This document shows positions 7,065 to 63,540 of a DNA stretch of 64,000 nt, piece after piece (the first letter of the stretch is position 1; each line of letters starts with the position of its first letter). Source of the DNA: Diplonema papillatum. Taxonomy: Eukaryota > Euglenozoa > Diplonemea > Diplonemida > Diplonemidae. Under the pieces are notes generated by a model. That model saw only the letters and a program-made list of their open reading frames with translations. It searched no databases and was not told the origin of the DNA. The DNA lies in NCBI GenBank assembly GCA_030068145.1, contig JAPJBO010000168.1:124001-188000 (forward strand), read 5' to 3'. Both the position numbers and the translations under genes were made by a program.

Positions 7065-8429
7065 CTAGCTGCTGCTGGTGAACACCACCGGCATGTCGCC
7101 CGGGGAGGTGCTGGCCGTCCACTCGCTGCAGGGCGCGGCGGCCCAGACGAAGCCGTGGCTGTTCACCGCGAACACCGCCGACGGGCAGGCCGGGTAGCTG
7201 TACTGGAGCGTCACCTTCCGGACCGATTTGAAGTTCGCCTGAGAATCCGGGATTTTCGAGTCTCCGGGTGACGGGTTTTAGTGCAACGTTTTTTAACCCA
7301 GATGATCCTTCCATCCCTGGAGGAACATCTTACACGGTGGAGTCCAGCCTCAGAACCTGGAGTTAATAAGCGGGTGTTACACCCGCTTTTCGGGGTGTGG
7401 ATTTACATGCGGTTTGGTTGTGGCGCTCGGGCACACCCTCTTTCACTCCAGCTTCTGAGGCTGGACCTCACCGTGTAGTCTAGTGTCCTGCGTTTGGGCA
7501 AATCAATTTGCTTTCCGGCGGTGAATTGCCTGGACATCCTCCTTCCTTCCATTTCCAGGGTGGGTGGGTGGGAAAATCGAAGGAAGGTGCTTGGTAGATC
7601 TCGCTCCTGCCGGCGCTTGCGCGAAATTAGCTGAAATAAACGCCCATTAAGTTCTTCCTTCGGTGCGGTTGCCTTCTGAGCCGTCGTCGCTGCTCCGACG
7701 TCCAAATTTAACTCCATACCTCACTGTGTAGGCTAATGTCTTGGGGCGGTGTGTACAAATGGCAGGGACAATGAGTACTTTTGGGAAAATCAATTTGCTT
7801 TCGAGTGAGGAGCCGGCGGTGAATTTTGTGCCTGGACATATATCCTCCTTCCTTCCACTTCCTGGGTGGGTGGTTGGTGGGGAAATCGAAGGAAGGTGCC
7901 TGGTAGATCTTGCTCCTGCCGGCGCTTGCGCGAAATTAGCTGAATTAAACGCCCGTTAAGCTCTTCCCTCGGTGCGGTTGCCTTCTGAGCCGTCGTCGCT
8001 GCTCCGACGTCCGAATTTAACTCCATACCTCACCGTGTAGGCTAGTGTCTTGGGGCGGTGTGTACAAATGGCAGGGACAATAATTACTTTGGGCAATATC
8101 GATTTGCTTTCGAGTGAGGAGCCGGCGGTGAATTTTGTTTGGGTCCACCATACCTGGTCCACGTCTACGTCAAGGCGAGCTGTGGCCACGACCTCTTGCC
8201 GCGACCGAACATCGAGCATGACCAGCGACTCGAGTAGCTTCTGCTGCAGCGTCCGATTCTCGAACAGCCGGAACACTTCCGCCTTGTCCACCTCGGCGAC
8301 GGGTCCCGCCAGCCGCCCGTGCTTCCTCGTCCACTCCTCCTCCAGCGCTGGCGTCCACTCGAAGTCGACCAGCCCCGGCGTCGAGCGCCGAAGCTGCCGA
8401 AAGAGGCACTTCGACAGGCGCGCCGTCAT
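7065..8429 (-). CDS. Two-exon small protein, possibly mitochondrial; unknown function
   Basis: Exon 1 is 8429-8154 (92 codons) from an ATG starting MTARLSKCLFRQLRRS, a basic amphipathic N-terminus that could be a mitochondrial targeting sequence. It continues with the charged helical stretch EWTPALEEEWTRKHGRLAGP and ends LDVDVDQ followed by donor GTATGG. Exon 2 is 7238-7065 (57 codons plus TAG) after the acceptor ATTCTCAG; it encodes VRKVTLQYSYPACPSAVFAV and ends DMPVVFTSSS. Both boundaries are phase 0, giving about 149 aa. The first bases of exon 2 lie within a dispersed motif (see the finding at 7225-7275), so the exact acceptor is uncertain. The 915-bp intron holds a 143-bp inverted-repeat element and a tandem duplication with SSU rRNA remnants. 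No family recognised. Confidence 0.6.
7333..7475. mobile_element. 143-bp inverted-repeat element with TA target duplication
   Basis: The ends are CACGGTGGAGTCCAGCCTC and the near-complement GGCTGGACCTCACCGTG, about 30 bp each with few mismatches, flanked by TA on both sides (7331-7332 and 7476-7477). Elements that duplicate TA are typical of the Tc1/mariner superfamily and its MITEs. It has no coding capacity and lies in the intron of the 7065-8429 gene. A sister copy is at 63541-63768 and a more distant one at 31408-31865. Confidence 0.75.
7478..8150 (-). repeat. Intronic tandem duplication (two full copies and one partial)
   Basis: A unit of about 250-310 bp is repeated at roughly 7486-7735 and 7736-8040, with a partial copy to 8150, all inside the intron. 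Each full copy has a minus-strand frame starting MELN(L/S)DVGAATTAQKATAP; the copies differ at both synonymous and replacement sites, so coding is doubtful. Each unit begins with CTACACGGTGAGG, the same terminus as the TA-flanked elements. Two copies start with a short piece of SSU rRNA. Confidence 0.7.
7744..7770 (-). rRNA. Short SSU rRNA 3'-domain remnant (non-functional)
   Basis: GGGCGGTGTGTACAAATGG and the following CAGGGAC are the complement of the universal SSU rRNA segment just before the 3' end. The same piece recurs at 8054-8078 in the next tandem unit, where similarity also stops after about 26 bases. The T in ACAAATGG is shared with the longer shard at 13399-13545, suggesting all derive from the host SSU gene. 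Confidence 0.6.
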
Positions 8430-12939: not shown

Positions 12940-13250
12940 ATGATCAACTTCGACCAAAAAATGGTGATAGGAAAATGGCAAATATGGCAGGCCGTGCGAT
13001 GCAGTTTCCTGGAGGTAAGGGGTGGGCCGGCTTCAGCGTTCGAGAAAAGGGGGGTGCTTTTATATTTCGGGGATGAGGTTTACGCCGGAATTTTTCCGAC
13101 TCCCACTATCGTGAACCAGCACGCGATTCGAGAGGTCTTTCTACCTCACGAAGAATCGCGCGGGTCGCTCTACGATGCTATGAAGGCTGCAAAAAGACGT
13201 ATGCGCAGCGTGTTTTTGGCGGTAGATCCGTGTTCCAAAGCTGGACAACG
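12940..13250 (+). CDS. Possible exon or decayed coding fragment
   Basis: A plus-strand frame encoding FGDEVYAGIFPTPTIVNQHA and SLYDAMKAAKRRMRSVFLAV has protein-like composition, but no family match. It runs directly into the TIR element at 13256, so the 3' end is lost or spliced away. A GGAGGTAAGG sequence at 13010-13020 could be a donor. It may be chance. Confidence 0.25.
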
Positions 13251-13255
13251 GTGTG

Positions 13256-13680
13256 AAACACTCGAGGGACTGCCTTGTACTCATTTCGACGAAACAACTA
13301 CAACGTGGGTCTTTTTTGTTGAACGCTTACGCCCGCCACTAAACCCAGATTTACCTGTGTTTCGTGTGGGCTACAGCACACTTACCTCCTTTGAGATTCG
13401 GGCGGTGTGTACAAATGGCAGGGACGTAATCAGTGCAAACTGATGACTTGCGCCTACTAGGCATTCCTCATTCAAGGAGAATAATTGCAATCATCGATCA
13501 TCATCACAACGCAAGTTCAAAAGCTTTCCCATCCTCTTCAAGGAATATTGTTGCGATAGTGGGGAGGCATCGGCATGCCGATGAGTACCACACTATGTCT
13601 GCCGGATGGGTCACTCTTTGAGATTTTGCAACTGCGGCAGTCTCCTCAAGTATTCCTACAAAGCAGGTGCTTATACAACA
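13256..13680 (-). mobile_element. AAGCACCTGCTT-type TIR element split by an rDNA insertion
   Basis: Reverse-orientation copy: CTCGAGGGACTGCC at the left and CTCAAGTATTCCTACAAAGC at the right are its termini. The core is interrupted at 13399-13615 by 217 bp that other family members lack. The insertion is flanked by the direct repeat CTTTGAGATT (13389-13398 and 13616-13625), a 10-bp target-site duplication. Confidence 0.8.
13399..13545 (-). rRNA. SSU rRNA 3'-domain fragment inserted in a TIR element
   Basis: Read on the plus strand this is the complement of SSU rRNA: GGGCGGTGTGTACAAATGG, GGACGTAATCAGTGC, TGATGACTTGCGCCTACTAG, GGCATTCCTCATTCAAGG, AATAATTGCAATC. These are conserved helices 41-44 in the expected order. 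Similarity fades after about 13545; the rest of the insert (to 13615) includes GGAATATTGTTGCGATAGTG, also present at 19718. Not a functional rRNA. Confidence 0.88.
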
Positions 13681-14607
13681 AAATAAGCGGGAAAACGGTT
13701 ACGCACGAACAACAACGAAGCGCCTGTATTTTTGCTTTGCTTTACTCTGACGAATGATGCGAGGCATTGTTGACAGGAGAAAAAAACGCAGCAACAAGAC
13801 GTGCAGTGCGCCTGCACAGGACCGACCTCGCGAGATAATCTTCGCGTTTCACAATGGTGGCGGATTTCCACGTGCACGCGCGTTGATTGCTTGAGAGCAC
13901 ATGCGGCAGAGGCGCCGGCAGCAGGGCGGAGGGTGTTGTGCATTCGACGGGTCGGGTGGGAGGACTGTGAGACTCTTCTGCACCCGCTCCGGATTGCGGG
14001 AGTGGTTTTACGGTCGTTTGTGCGGTCGGCCTCACTTCTCAATGAGGGAGTGGGACCCCCCTCGATGAGGGAGTGGCACTCCCTCAATAAGGGAGCGGGA
14101 CCCCCCTCAATGCGGGAGTGGCCACTCCCGCACGTTTTCACTCCCGCGTTGACTTAGTATGTGGCTGCTGAAGTCCGGGGTGTGTGTGGCTCCTAATTTT
14201 CACATTTTCACACTGGATTTCATACTGGCGCGACACACTGGAAGTGCGGGTGACAGTGGATTGCATACAGAAGACGTGGCACATTGCGTTTGTGGGTGTG
14301 GCACACTATCATCCGCTGCTAGAACACACGTACGGCACACACGCCGTACTCACAGTCGTTCGTTTGTTGCATGGGTGAACGACAGAACTTCTGTCAGAAG
14401 GAGGAGAAAAAGTTTGGGTTGCCTGACGGAATGCCAGCAGCGTTTTTTTTTTTTTTTTGTGTTTCCGACGATCCGAATGGACGTTCAGATTGGTGTCTTT
14501 CGACCTTTTGAATGCTTGTGAAGTTCAGCTTAGTGCGTGCTTGTGGTGATCGGTGGGGTTCCCAAAAGAAAATGTTTCGTTCGTTTTTTTTTTTTTTTTT
14601 TTTTTTT
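13681..14607. other. Intergenic with palindromic GGGAGTG repeats
   Basis: 14040-14155 has five variants of a GGGAGTG(G/GG)ACCCCCCTC repeat that form hairpins (for example GCGGGAGTGGCCACTCCCGC). Poly-T runs lie at 14443-14457 and 14586-14609. 14488-14531 is another isolated TCTTTCGACC-type motif. Confidence 0.5.
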
Positions 14608-15075: not shown

Positions 15076-16751
15076 CTCTTCTTTCTTTCTGCTGTCGCAA
15101 GAGAAACGAGCAGGGTATTAGTTCAGAGGTTCCCAGGGGTTAGCAGATATTGACCGTTTGTGGGGGGCCGGTTTGGTCAGTGCTTCGTTTCGGTGGCTCG
15201 GAGCTGACACACCTCCGCAACTTTGTCCAAAAGTAATCGCGCCTTGTATCACATGGGTCTGCCCTCCAGCACCCAGAAGGCTGGGATCAACCCCTCGCAT
15301 CAAGACCTGTGCTCTATGAACGGTGGTAATGGTGCCTTGCAAGTGATCTCTTCATCGGGATGAAAGCGCTTACGCGTACACCATACTCGTACGGGTCGAC
15401 CACCGATGTTACTGTAAACAAACCAGCGTGCCCAAAGCAGGCGTTCGCCGTGAATGATAAAGCATGGAATAACAAGCCTGGCGCACGTGTAAACACCACC
15501 CCCCCCACGTATCTATCCTGGAAACGCTGTGTTTTGCGTTTTTCCGACAATTTTTTTTTGTGTTTCCGACGATCCCGTGGCCGTGGGACGTACAGATTGG
15601 TGTCTTTCAACCTTTTGTTTGTTTTGTGAGGTTCAGCTACATGTGATCGGTGGGGGATAAGAAGCTTACCGGATCGGGCGTTTTTATTTTTCCCCCGGTC
15701 AACCCAGGGCTTACGCTCCGTTTTCGGTCTCAGAGAAAATACGTGTGGTCCACATGTGGGCGCTTAAGGTTCGAGGGGGATAAAACCTTCCCCTTATGTG
15801 CGACTGCAAAAAGAAATAGCGTCGCAAGGTAGCTACTGGACTTGGCGACACCTGGCTGTGCGGCCTTGACCACTGGTGGGCCTAGACTCTCCTGCATGTG
15901 GACCAATAAATCAAAATCCACATGTGGTACCTACGGATCCACACGTGGGGGAACAAAATCCAAAAAGAATTAACGTGTGGAAATCCACACGTTCCACACG
16001 TGGAGCGTAAGCCCTGGGTCAACCCCCGGTTTGCAGATTTAGACCGTTGGTCTAAATCTGCAACGTAAACTAATCCCCTGAAAAAACAGCCCAGCGCACG
16101 GAAGGAAAAAAAACAGTCTGGCATCGGGTTCCTTTGCACACGAGCGCGCCGAAGGAGGAAGATGGCAAGACTTTGGCTGCTGCTTTGATGCTGACGGGCA
16201 TCCTAAAACAGGCTGTGAACGGGTGCGCAGCCTGCGGTGGCTGCTGAACAGTGCGTCGAGGGCACCGTGTTGTTCCAGCGCTGTTTCTGATTATTACGGA
16301 CAAGGCTTGGTATCCTGTAAAGCAGTGAACAGCTTATTGTAAAACATGGTTGTGTCGATGCACAGTATCAATACTGCCAACCCATGGCGGCGGTCAGATA
16401 TCGATCAGTTGAAAAAAAAAATGCGTAGTTTTGTTTCATTCTTTTACTTGTTAGTTGTCGACAACTTTTTTTGTATTGAAGTGTCATTCAGATGTAAATC
16501 CAAAGCCGCCCACGTCAAATTTTGTTAAGCATTGTCATTGAGTTCTTTTCAGTACATGAACCACATGGATTAGCATGCACTTGTTAAGCAGCGGCTGCCA
16601 AAACTTGCCGTGACACCTATGATCAAAGTAAAGGAGGAAAGGAGAAAATGTTTTTAAAAAAGAAAAGGGGCAGGTTGTAATTTTCGACCCTCGTAGCTCG
16701 CGCTGGGTCAGGCGCGCCAGCTAGATGCTGGGCGAAAGCTTTTTTTTTCAT
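15076..16751. other. Intergenic; E-box-like palindromes and repeat pieces
   Basis: 15596-15641 carries another TCTTTCAACC...TTGTTTGTTTT motif. 15890-16010 has several CCACATGTGG / CCACACGTGG palindromes spaced 25-40 bp apart. 16521-16595 is a fragment shared with 18860-18925 (TACATGAACCACATGGATTA). No gene is supported. Confidence 0.45.
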
Positions 16752-19599: not shown

Positions 19600-19912
19600 A
19601 AATATTCGAGGGGCTGCCTTGTGCTCATTTCGAAGGAGTTTTGTTGAACTCTTACGCTCGTTACTAAACCCAGATTAACCTGTGTTTCGTGTGTACATTT
19701 ACCTCCTTTCAGATTGGAATATTGTTGCGATAGTGGGGAGCCATCTATGCCTGCCTTACGCTACGTGTAGCGCGGTGCAACCCGCGACGGCTGCAACTGC
19801 TGCTGGTAGCTTGCGACAAGCTCGTAGTCAGATCCGGAATCGGAGGTCCTGGTTCTCTCGCAACTGGCAGTCTCCTCAGGTACTTCCTACAAAGCGGGTG
19901 TTGATACAAAAA
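19600..19912 (-). mobile_element. AAGCACCTGCTT-type TIR element with internal insert
   Basis: Reverse copy with ATTCGAGGGGCTGCC at the left and TCCTACAAAGCGGGTG at the right. The core is interrupted at about 19708-19855 by sequence starting GGAATATTGTTGCGATAGTG, which also occurs in the insert of the 13.3 kb copy. Together with the 19259 copy this makes an inverted pair 200 bp apart. Confidence 0.7.
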
Positions 19913-23393: not shown

Positions 23394-23640
23394 CACGAAG
23401 CAAAAGTCGTAACAAGGTTGCTGTAGGTGAACCCGCAGCAGGATCATTAACAAAGATTTCAATTCTGAATGGACTGAGGAAACGACTTTCAAACAGATTG
23501 GAAACCGAGGATTCAAACATGGTCATGAAGGAAATCAGAATTGCTCGGAAAGGAAAAACAACTGTTCCCCTCGGCTCAACTGAGGGTGACATCAATTGCA
23601 CTTATCGGTGGATGTCTTGGCTCTGGGAACGATGAAGCGT
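23394..23640 (+). rRNA. SSU 3' end - ITS1 - 5.8S 5' end fragment
   Basis: AAGTCGTAACAAGGTTGCTG, TAGGTGAACCCGCAGC and GGATCATTA (end at 23449) are the universal SSU rRNA 3' terminus. About 145 bp of ITS1-like sequence follows, then TATCGGTGGATGTCTTGGCT and GAACGATGAAG, the conserved 5' part of 5.8S rRNA (about 23595-23637). Both genes are truncated (SSU begins only about 55 bases before its end), so this is an rDNA shard. It may preserve the true ITS1 length and order of the species. Confidence 0.92.
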
Positions 23641-25233: not shown

Positions 25234-25400
25234 CTGGCGCAAGAAACCAGCCAAGCGTTCATAGCGACGTTGCTTTTTGATCCTTTGATGTCGGCTCTTC
25301 CTAACCTAGACAAGCAGAATTGTCTTAGGGTTGAATTGTTCACCCCACTAGCAGGGAACGTGCGCTGGGTTTAGACCGTCGTGACACAGGTTACTGATGG
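25234..25400 (+). rRNA. LSU rRNA 3'-domain fragment
   Basis: CCAGCCAAGCGTTCATAGCG, ACGTTGCTTTTTGATCCTTT, GATGTCGGCTCTTCCTA, AAGCAGAATTG, AATTGTTCACCCCACTAG and GCTGGGTTTAGACCGTCGTG reproduce the conserved LSU segment just 5' of the sarcin-ricin loop, in order. It stops at about 25400 before the loop itself. Both ends are abrupt, so it is a shard. Confidence 0.93.
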
Positions 25401-26231
25401 AGAGAGAGCCACAGAACAGGTGACTCGCATCACGGCCTCTAACGACCACGTGTCATACAACAGAAACAAGGCGACCTTTTTTTCTGCGAATGTGTCGCGA
25501 GTAAAACGTTGAACCGCAGACCTGACTTTTGATGGAGTCGTGTGCCTGGCGGTAGGCAGCGGCCTTCGATTCGCTGGCGCTACTGCCCGGGATGTCGAGC
25601 TTCGCTTCGCCTGGGGCCTCCACGGCGTTTCCCTTGTACTCGTACCTCGTACCGCCAAACCTTTTAGGAGTCCACGGGTTGGAGTGCTGTGAAGAATTGG
25701 TGCCAAGATTCGATTGCACACGGGTTAGTTCTCGTCGGAATAGGACCAATCTTCTAAGATTTTCGATCGTACGACCAAGAAAGACACAGGCGCTTCGTTT
25801 TGTTTGTGCGTGCCGGTTGATCGTTTTCCCACTTGAGTTTTACCCTGTGTATTCAGGTAAGGAATTCTGATCAACCACCAAAACACGCTGCCTACGTCTT
25901 TTTAGCCTGCACAATACATTGAGGGGCAACCCACAAGATTGTTAGTACTAAAAAAAAAAGGCGCATACCAAAAGCAGACACGAACGTCTCATTGCGCCGC
26001 GAAATGACGACAGCGCGGGCCTTCGCCCAGTCGAACTGGCGGCAAACGAACAACACACACCCCTCTGACTTGTTTCTCTGTAGCCTGGGCACATGGGTTT
26101 TGGCGGGTTGCGGGGGACATCTTATTTTAGACAGGACGCTGCCTCTTGTGCATAATTGATGCTAGCAACGAGTCTTCTTCGAAGAAGATACCCAATAGAA
26201 AAAGCAACCCGAAAGAGGGAAAAGGGAGCAT
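25401..26231. other. Intergenic, nothing recognised
   Basis: Frames on both strands (for example 25371-25721) have no domain signal. 26140-26180 is the dispersed GATGCTAGCAACGAGTCTTC motif family. Confidence 0.4.
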
Positions 26232-34338: not shown

Positions 34339-34879
34339 GCCAAATACAATAGGCATAATATTGTACTTGGAGGGGAAGGATAGAGAAAACCGGGTTTTCA
34401 AACAGTCTGGATGCTGATAGTCTGGGTGCAGGTACACCTGCAGGACAACATTTGGAGGAAATTTGGCTATTTTCTTCGCGGAATGGAAAGAGCTATCCCC
34501 GGCATGTATCGGTACGTTATATATTATCGACACACGATGTAGCCAAAAATCTGGCCCCCGGATGGCAGTGGAAGAATGCAGTGTTTGCCGCAGCAGCCCG
34601 CACTGTTCCCGGCTGATAGCTTCACCATTTCTCGAAGGTGCGGAGAACCGCGTTGGCGCAAACGTTTGCCACGCTCCCTGATCAGCAGCTGTTGCAAGCG
34701 AAATAATATGCGTCGAACAACCCCGTCACAGGCACCTGATTGAGCGGATATCGCGAGAAACACAAACAACAGCACAGAAGTCTCCCTTTGGGGCCCCAGA
34801 AGCATCGCGAAAAGACCTGCCTTCGCTAGTCAATGGCCACCAGTTTGGGAATGCTGAGCTAATCGGTGGGTATCCCTCT
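34339..34879. other. Intergenic, 5' flank of membrane-protein gene
   Basis: No gene recognised. TATATTATCGACACACGATG at 34517-34536 is AT-rich and might be promoter sequence, without further support. Confidence 0.35.
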
Positions 34880-35000
34880 GCTGAGGCTAAATATCTCCCG
34901 GAGGCCGATAGCGAACAAGTACAGGGATGGAAAGATGCAAAGAACTTTGAAAAGAGGGTTAAAAGTCCCTGAAACCGGTGAATGGTAAGAGTTGGAGATG
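34880..35000 (+). rRNA. LSU rRNA 5'-domain fragment, sense
   Basis: GCTAAATATCTCCCGGAGGC, CGATAGCGAACAAGTACAGG, ATGGAAAGATGCAAAGAACT and TTGAAAAGAGGGTTAAAAG are the conserved LSU D1/D2 core. Same region as the antisense shard at 18661-18757 and nearly identical to it, but the ends differ: the similarity between the two runs on for about 20 bases after GAAACCG and then stops. Confidence 0.88.
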
Positions 35001-35203
35001 CGGTCAAATCTTAATCATTGCTCCTTCACTGGGGTTTATGGGTGAGACGTCTGTACTGGGGAAGACGGCAAGTCGTAGTGCGGGTCCTCGAGGCACTGCT
35101 GCATCTGCGTGCCCCGCAGCGAAGGCACCGTGTAATGTGCGGCGAGATCCGAAGCGGGCGAAAAATCCCGTCTTTTTTAAGTTGACGCCGAAAAAAGAAT
35201 CGC
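35001..35203. other. Intergenic, nothing recognised
   Basis: Unclassified sequence between the LSU fragment and the TIR element. Confidence 0.35.
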
Positions 35204-48095: not shown

Positions 48096-48176
48096 TGGTC
48101 TGTGCCAAGCGAGACCCAGGATCGCTAGCGGCCATGCTTTCACACCGAGTATCGAGCACCCTTATGCCTACGCGAT

Positions 48177-48321
48177 ATTTCTGTTCCCGCTGAGTTTGCC
48201 TCAGGACACCTGCGTTAATGTGTAACAGATGTGCCACCCCAGCCAAACTCCCCACCTAACTGGTGTCTCCAAACGAGGATTCGCGAGCCGAAGCCCGTTT
48301 GTCGCTGGAAACGGATAAGTC
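48177..48321 (-). rRNA. LSU rRNA domain IV-V fragment, antisense
   Basis: Plus strand CGCTGAGTTTGCCTCAGG, ACACCTGCGTTAATGTG, TGCCACCCCAGCCAAACTCC and CCACCTAACTGG is the complement of the conserved LSU segment (GGGGAGTTTGGCTGGGGC ... CGCAGGTGTCC). The adjoining CTCCAAACGAGGATTCGCGA ... CGTTTGTCGCTGG also occurs at 57866-57922, which supports both being LSU sequence. Confidence 0.8.
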
Positions 48322-48875
48322 CGAAGACCCTATCCCCACAAGGGAGCAGCTGCCGATTTCGCATCTTTGAATCAGTAAAGCGACAACAAGAGTAGTGGTA
48401 TTTCATTGTAGCGGCCTCCCACCTCTCGTGTCACTGGGGCCCCATGGCTGCGAACATGGAGTCTCAGTGCACTGAACTGCATTCAGGGACGCAAACCCCG
48501 TGTTCCGAGCGGAACAACTGCGTGCGGTTTTATAGTCATTCGCACAAGCTGGAACAAGGTTGCAAGGAAAGGCAGTGAAGCGGGTAACGAAACTACTTGC
48601 CGCGACACCCACTCTGCATGGCAATGCGAGCGGGCGCCGTTTTCCCAACTCTGAGCCGGCCCGGACAACAAACGTTTATTTTCCTGACTGTTTTCACTCT
48701 CCCTTCTGTCCCGGCGACAGTTGCTTGGTGTAGCTTGTTCTTGATCCTTGGAATGTCGTACTCGACTCCAAATCAACAAGGCTCTGTGTGTAAGTCGCGT
48801 TGGTTCACCTCTGGCCTCCTCAAATGAGACGGGTGGCACCGTCCGAGTGCTTTCTTTTTCCCCCCCCGAACGGGT
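48322..48875. other. Intergenic, nothing recognised
   Basis: No gene or repeat recognised. Confidence 0.4.
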
Positions 48876-62136: not shown

Positions 62137-63540
62137 ACCTCGACGAGCAATCGAAGAAGAAGCGAAGCACCAAACGCGCGCCTGAGCGCGACGATCAAGA
62201 CGAGCTAAAGAGGCGAAAGCATGACACTTCACGTGCGAAGAGATAACCGCGCCGTCGGCGATGCAGATTATCGCCACAGATTCTTTGCATTCTAACCCAA
62301 ACGATTCAAACCGATTCAACTTGATCAACGATAATCAGCAAGCCAATCATCATCGAATCAAGAGTCGAAAGCAGTCTGAGAGATTAGATTTTCAAGCGAC
62401 ACTCAACTGCTGATGGGCATGGGCGAACCCACCCCGCTAGTGTTTGTTGCCAACACATCCCTTGTTGTGACGGCCCTGCTTGACGCGCACACGTGTGTAC
62501 GAGTCGCTGACAGCTGTACTCTGTCAGCGCGTCGATGCGTCTTGTGAACAACCTGATACACGCGGGAGTGATCAAGGGGAGTGATCAAGGGGAGTGATCA
62601 AGGGGAGTGATCAAGGGGTTCTGTGCTATCATTGCCGACGGACGTATTGATTGCCCGGCTGCCAGTACCACTGGTTGGTTTTGTTTGCCCTCTGTACCTC
62701 TTCGTGCACTTCACGACCTGTTCCTCCGTCAGCTTTGGGACTTCCTTCCCACAAAACCCACTGCTCTGTTGTGCTGCCGCCAAAGGCATGGAACTGTATG
62801 CCGGGCGCGAAATATACCGTAGTTCCGGAAATCTCTGTCGGTCTTACTCGCTGAGTCTCTGACCACATCACGGGCCCAATGGCTCAGCGAGCCTAACTAC
62901 TTTGCACCTGCTTCAACACCCGGTCGTCAGGGCCCAAGGGGAGAAGCCCGTGCAGCTACTTCTAAGTTAGTAGAGCGAGCAACCTGCGGACCGAACACAA
63001 TGTGCAGTCACTTTGCGGGTGGTTCGTGCCCACCTCCATCGCGCATATCTCAGCGTGAAAGACGAGTGCGAGAGAAGGAGGGCGAGCTCAAGAAGAAGCA
63101 AATACAAAAACAAACGTAACCGAAGCACGTCAAGGGTGGGCCAGCCGAATCCGGGAAGGGAAAAAAAGAAACAGGGAATGCCTGCGTTTTCTAAAATTTG
63201 TTGTTTTTCCTCATCTAGAAACGGCCGGAACAGAATGTGTAGAAGAAGGATTGTTATCTTGACGAGGGGTGACGGAAGTTCGCCGCCAAGGGAATGAAGG
63301 GCGGACGGCGCCGCTTGGAAAAGCGGCGCCGGCAACGCCTTGCCTTAAGTGCCCTAATCTTCTTAGGAAAGGAGCAGGGAAATGCCACCGTTTTGCACGC
63401 GTATACGGATGTACCGGCGGGTCTATCCGGGTGCGACATGTAGACAGGTTCGTGCTGTAAGAAGCTGGTGTTTGAAAGTGTACGGTCGGTCACCGTTGGG
63501 GTGGGGATGGGATGTGCAGTCTTAGCTTAAATATTGTTTA
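62137..63540. other. Intergenic, repeat pieces only
   Basis: A GCCACAGATTCTTTGC-type dispersed-repeat copy at 62262-62300. A 13-bp tandem repeat at 62564-62619. A CCGCTTGGAAAAGCGGCG hairpin at 63310-63328. Frames at 62600-62870 and 63013-63335 have no domain signal. Confidence 0.4.
62564..62619. repeat. 13-bp tandem repeat GGGAGTGATCAAG
   Basis: Four perfect copies in a row. Confidence 0.95.

Follow-up and report, generated by a model that had tools for sequence, protein, structure and literature searches.

How a piece of SSU rRNA came to lie inside a TIR element is the question raised by a locus in the 64,000-bp stretch of Diplonema papillatum DNA analysed here (the window). The antisense SSU sequence that the preliminary description had recognized in this copy of the element was confirmed: it matches Rfam family RF01960 with 71.3 bits (E 5.8e-17), and blastn aligned 13399-13542 to the genome's own rDNA with 140 identities in 144 bp. 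The parts of the locus are listed below. L-numbers designate genome loci that were fetched for comparison, L031 being the rDNA reference locus. The outer ends of the host copy were deduced from the sequence common to the copies, and its 3′ tail ...CTTATACAACAAAA stops at about 13683.

13256..13683, + strand: whole host copy, a long-form TIR element with the rRNA piece in it, from alignment to other copies
13256..13274, + strand: left inverted repeat AAACACTCGAGGGACTGCC; the 5′ end AAATACTCGAGGGACTGCC is common to other copies
13389..13398, + strand: first CTTTGAGATT copy, a pre-existing part of the element
13399..13542, − strand: SSU rRNA fragment, 144 bp, sense 3′ end ...ACACCGCCCG, with 4 substitutions relative to the rDNA of L031
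13543..13615, + strand: non-rRNA inner module of the long form, less extended than in L045
13556..13596, + strand: imperfect hairpin within the inner module, from folding against shuffles
13616..13625, + strand: second CTTTGAGATT copy, a pre-existing part of the element
13636..13655, + strand: right (subterminal) inverted repeat GGCAGTCTCCTCAAGTATTC

The stretch between the two CTTTGAGATT copies had been described as a 217-bp rRNA insert. This holds for the 144 bp of SSU sequence; the remaining 73 bp (13543-13615) are ordinary element sequence, so that the 217 bp have two origins and a single-origin insert is ruled out. The 73 bp gave no significant blastn match to the rDNA unit and match the inner module in long-form copies of the same TIR element (1214 first-look candidate places in the genome, 40 of them scored). 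The RF01960 match extends to 13598, and this extension was considered as a second SSU piece; it was rejected because it covers the module hairpin, where blastn found no significant rDNA match.

That a real insertion of an rRNA piece took place is supported by comparison with rRNA-free long-form copies, relative to which the window copy has a net gain of 143-144 bp between CTTTGAGATT and (G)GAATATTG. The insertion made no duplication; one G at most is common to both sides, and nothing else was lost. The 3′ end of the rRNA sense strand (...ACCGCCCG) directly abuts AATCTCAAAG, with no A-rich or simple tail. A 10-nt inverted repeat at 13102/13554 is likely a chance match.

The two exact CTTTGAGATT copies (13389-13398 and 13616-13625) had been interpreted as a 10-bp target duplication caused by the rRNA insertion. 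The arrangement CTTTGAGATT, GGAATATTGTTGCG, 40-65 bases, CTTTGAGATT occurs at 30 places in the genome (19 + 11, exact pattern; the reversed-pattern control gave 0), and with a spacing of 40-65 bases the rRNA piece cannot fit in any of them. The repeat is thus already duplicated at sites free of rRNA, the finding that the preliminary description had named as refuting its reading, and the insertion of the rRNA piece cannot have created the pair as a target duplication. Of these places eight were fetched and inspected; in all eight the arrangement lies within a copy of the element, the left side being different in L072. Short-form copies have one CTTTGAGATT or a variant such as CTTTGATCTA. Judged from these sequences, the second CTTTGAGATT is a property of the long form. 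The rRNA piece is located between the first repeat and the module, both of which pre-exist in other copies.

The inner module starts with GGAATATTGTTGCG, holds the hairpin and sits at the same place in long-form copies. L045 has a longer version, and CCGGATGGGTCACTC is common to L045 and the window copy. Folding of a 77-nt relative of the module gave a z score of −4.97 (0 of 200 shuffles as good), whereas the window copy of the module gave −1.19 (22 of 200). In the 30 rRNA-free places the left end of the module is constant (GGAATATTG). Its joint to the second repeat, after CACACTAT, varies by 0 to about 10 bases among most listed copies, a pattern that, in sequence, looks like independent deletions, excision scars or 5′ truncations. 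Another long-form copy in the window (19716-19910) has an extended inner module and is without the second CTTTGAGATT. The rDNA spacer at L031 5116-5128 carries CTTTGAGATTTCG, 13 bases identical to the element sequence at the insertion site; this identity is possibly due to chance.

The 144-bp piece is one of many rDNA scraps in the genome and most likely not a new kind of mobile element. Blast comparison of the window with one rDNA unit (7630 bp, in the order SSU, 5.8S, LSU) gave 14 matches in 64,000 bases, two of which are 26-bp copies in one tandem repeat; the reversed unit gave 0. Matches outside the TIR copy include the following:

15274..15476, + strand: SSU fragment, 98.0% identity
18636..18758, − strand: LSU fragment, 96.7%
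23397..23637, + strand: fragment running from the SSU 3′ end through ITS1 into 5.8S, 91.1%
25248..25410, + strand: LSU fragment, 95.2% over 145 bp plus a 19-bp match
34841..35053, + strand: LSU fragment, 96.2%
48107..48424, − strand: LSU fragment in two pieces
62302..62442, − strand: 5.8S/ITS2 fragment, 95.7%, directly after a repeat end

The repeat beside the last of these ends in ...GATTATCGCCACAGATTCTTTGCATTCTAACC and was seen at window 62218-62442, L010 1389-1800, L038 2763-2850 and L040 2668-2750. In the window the 5.8S/ITS2 piece lies directly 3′ of it; in L010 a 333-bp SSU-derived piece with 100% identity lies within it.

The 37 loci fetched for the element contained 25 rDNA matches in 114,533 bases. 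Fragments of rDNA account for 2.8% of the sequence in the window and for 3.6% of that in the fetched element loci. No rDNA match was found in three arbitrarily placed 7-kb regions (L076-L078, 21,000 bases) or in two spliced-leader loci (6,046 bases). A diplonemid spliced-leader query had 640 genome matches at ≤1 mismatch (340 + 300, control 0). Because the 21,000 arbitrary bases contained no fragment, the density in the window cannot be extended to the whole genome, and a uniform genome-wide density taken from the window alone was rejected as unsafe. The fragments may be concentrated in repeat-rich regions: the window and the surroundings of the elements have about 2 per 10 kb, the 21,000 bases none. 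In the genome, rDNA 26-mers (≤2 mismatches, controls 0) were found 340 times for SSU, 270 times for LSU, and 166 and 217 times for the spacer, to be compared with the more than 20 rDNA units that PMC10161547 gives for the assembly. By rough inference from these counts, and with an average length near 150 bp, the fragments likely number of the order of ten thousand or more.

Some of this dispersal has been reported before. The available parts of the genome paper on Diplonema papillatum (PMC10161547) give an assembly of 280,293,864 bp in 6181 contigs with more than 20 rDNA units of ~7.6 kb, more than 1400 NUMTs in P. papillatum, and about 3600 scattered 28S pieces, which are likened to TRIMs and SINEs. 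In the literature examined, as far as the portions available go, this is the only description of scattered rRNA pieces in a diplonemid.

The flanks of other fragments were inspected for traces of the insertion process. The longest direct repeat spanning the ends of a fragment measured 3 nt in 10 of 37 cases, 4 nt in 12, 5 nt in 11, 6 nt in three and 8 nt in one. Two further fragments, which extend to the end of a locus, were excluded; the 37 include a pair of 26-bp copies from a single tandem repeat and nine fragments from loci that had been chosen for this SSU segment. Flanking direct repeats were not in excess: repeats of at least 6 nt occurred in 4/37 fragments versus 211/3000 random pairs.

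Empty sites, that is paralogous repeat copies, were sought by searching the flanks of 29 fragments for repeats in the fetched sequence; nine were displayed. The comparison was readable in four. L010 has a clean join within 2 bases, plus two extra T; 12 bases are missing in L022; L004 has extra bases at both sides. In L018 an 8-nt repeat flanks the fragment on both sides and could be a target duplication. For L021, w18636 and w48107 no clear empty site was found among the paralogous copies, and L054 and w61934 had no partner copy in the fetched sequence. The four readable sites are mixed, and in our analysis the mixture resembles end joining with filler.

We consider end-joining repair capture of an rDNA-derived fragment the best explanation of the locus and, going by the sequence comparisons, assign it a probability of about 0.74. 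A double-strand break would have occurred in a long-form TIR copy at the joint of the first CTTTGAGATT and the hairpin-bearing inner module, and end joining would have sealed it with a 143-144 bp fragment derived from nuclear rDNA as filler. The filler could have come from genomic DNA or from cDNA of the precursor transcript. In this scheme we infer the break, the end-joining pathway and the fragility of the joint beside the hairpin, which is plausible.

Two features of repair-captured filler were found, namely a unique left junction and the absence of a target duplication made by the insertion. The left junction, TTTGAGATT followed by CGGGCGGTGTGTACAAA, has 1 match in the searched genome (271 Mb in 2910 contigs; ≤2 mismatches, control 0), which is the window itself. 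This rules out a recurring fusion of rRNA and element, and of the two outcomes envisaged in the preliminary description it favours the one in which a unique insert means repair-mediated capture. The module joint is altered elsewhere as well: 11 variants with short filler were found (search range 2-32 nt), eight with 2-3 extra bases, one with a 14-nt addition and two in which part of the element's own 3′ end is joined at GAATATTG.

As to the source, the window fragment at 23397-23637 spans SSU, ITS1 and 5.8S, so mature rRNA cannot be the sole source, and the frequency of spacer 26-mers beside those of SSU and LSU also points beyond mature rRNA. These spacer 26-mers lie about 250 nt from coding genes (LSU 3′ end, SSU 5′ end) and may be transcribed. 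Among sampled fragments with at least 88% identity the spacer accounts for 3/32 fragments and 93/4682 bp, whereas it forms 19% of the unit; this under-representation could mean a transcript source, and faster divergence of the spacer may also explain it. The position of the insertion exactly at the edge of the inner module counts against end joining, since it may reflect a mechanism linked to the edge itself; random breakage would fall there in about 1-2% of cases (an estimate for an element of ~250 bp). The 8-nt repeat at L018 and the uneven spread of the fragments, with none in the 21,000 arbitrary bases, also count against it.

The unique left junction also bears on the possibility that the piece belongs to an rRNA-derived mobile element, a SINE-like family with constant ends. 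The published likening of 28S pieces to TRIMs and SINEs speaks for such a family, and so do 3 end coincidences within 1 nt among 61 ends from an unselected sample, against 0.97 expected (p 0.08). The 144-bp piece takes part in two coincidences, one with the 26-bp copy at 7744 and one with L043. However, the unique junction contradicts a family for this copy, and the sampled fragments vary in length and scatter over the rDNA unit, with starts and stops in SSU, ITS, 5.8S, LSU and spacer. Clustering of the 61 ends was not significant (p 0.27, 0.08 and 0.08 for pairs within 0, 1 and 2 nt). Apparent clustering in a larger set of 89 ends (p < 0.01) was discarded, as most of it was due to tandem copies in L063 and to loci picked for this SSU segment. 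Both sets exclude the window's second 26-bp tandem copy and all matches below 88% identity. These results make a family with constant ends, which had been envisaged for the insert, very improbable.

The 26-bp copies belong to a tandem repeat with 309-bp spacing (window 7744-7769 and 8053-8078) that holds the exact SSU piece GGGCGGTGTGTACAAATGGCAGGGAC, one end of which is within 1 nt of an end of the 144-bp piece. A misjoined rDNA read in the assembly can hardly account for the locus either. The assembly alone was examined, and rDNA is a repeat that assemblers confuse; but the piece has 4 substitutions relative to rDNA, the other 39 matches are each at 97% (40 scored of 3634 first-look candidates, element matches included), and none of the scored matches has these 4 changes. 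This argues against a misjoined read, as does the position of both junctions inside a 313-kb contig.

The main rival is a cDNA-based route, in which the enzyme of a retrotransposon copied a pre-rRNA fragment by template jumping or by priming at a break. It would make the rRNA piece abut the exact end of the inner module, and the piece does lie exactly at the module edge. The constant left and variable right ends of the module would suit a 5′-truncated retro-copy on the − strand, which is also the sense of the rRNA, and transcribed regions predominate among the sampled fragments. LINE-1, SLACS, R2 and jockey-like genes are reported for the species in the accessible text of PMC10161547, and 28S/LINE-1 chimeras are described in that of PMC13174262. 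Against this route, the rRNA piece has neither a target duplication of its own nor a tail, the readable empty sites of other fragments have, in three of four cases, a deletion, additional bases or a near-clean joint and no duplication, and the fragment ends of the unselected sample do not cluster significantly. Furthermore, the module occurs at one element site with few exceptions (among loci chosen for the element or the arrangement). We regard this route as unlikely for the present insertion.

Of the retroposition of an rRNA piece that had been suggested, the cDNA-based route is thus what is left as a rival; the hallmarks of retroposed rRNA or SINEs (own target duplication, tail, constant-end family) were not found at this copy. 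A sustained route coupled to reverse transcription, in which pre-rRNA cDNA is joined by template jumping at breaks or element ends, would explain the module-edge position and the prevalence of transcribed regions; as the cause of the genome-wide scatter we find it improbable.

On the reading that we prefer, repair capture, the single insertion is ordinary; it is the dispersal of rDNA fragments that merits study. If the scraps are repair scars, this diplonemid would preserve traces of perhaps ten thousand or more natural repair events whose donor is known, and these would allow the rules of end joining to be studied in a lineage distant from both yeast and mammals. The comparison of rRNA pieces with SINEs and TRIMs, as it appears in the available text of PMC10161547, would then be put in question.

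The fragments resemble the 28S pieces described there in being short pieces of rRNA genes dispersed in the genome. They differ from that account, in the parts available, in that SSU, ITS, 5.8S and spacer pieces were found besides LSU, and in that the sites look more like end-joining capture than like the TRIMs and SINEs of the published comparison. With 28S/LINE-type chimeras the locus shares the joining of an rRNA fragment to mobile-element sequence. In contrast to them, the rRNA piece lacks its own target duplication, and it is hosted by a TIR element that has many rRNA-free copies and no demonstrated retro-element partner.

Closer parallels are found among repair products. According to the portions seen of two yeast studies (PMC10802722, a preprint, and PMC11724301), insertions at double-strand breaks are mostly ~45-300 bp, with mtDNA, Ty cDNA and nuclear sequences, rDNA among them, as donors. 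The present case is similar in its kind of donor (rDNA, mitochondrial DNA and retro-element cDNA in yeast), its size and the proposed end joining; the yeast insertions are known from experiments, whereas the window case is deduced from the sequence of a distantly related protist. In rad27 mutants, by the same partial account of PMC11724301, rDNA supplied very few insertions, so that it is not preferred as a donor under all conditions. Primate NUMTs, as described in the available part of PMC2567098, are likewise filler with little or no loss of target sequence (54% of insertion events without deletion) and without mobile-element hallmarks; their donor is mitochondrial DNA, that of the insertion described here nuclear rDNA or cDNA of it.
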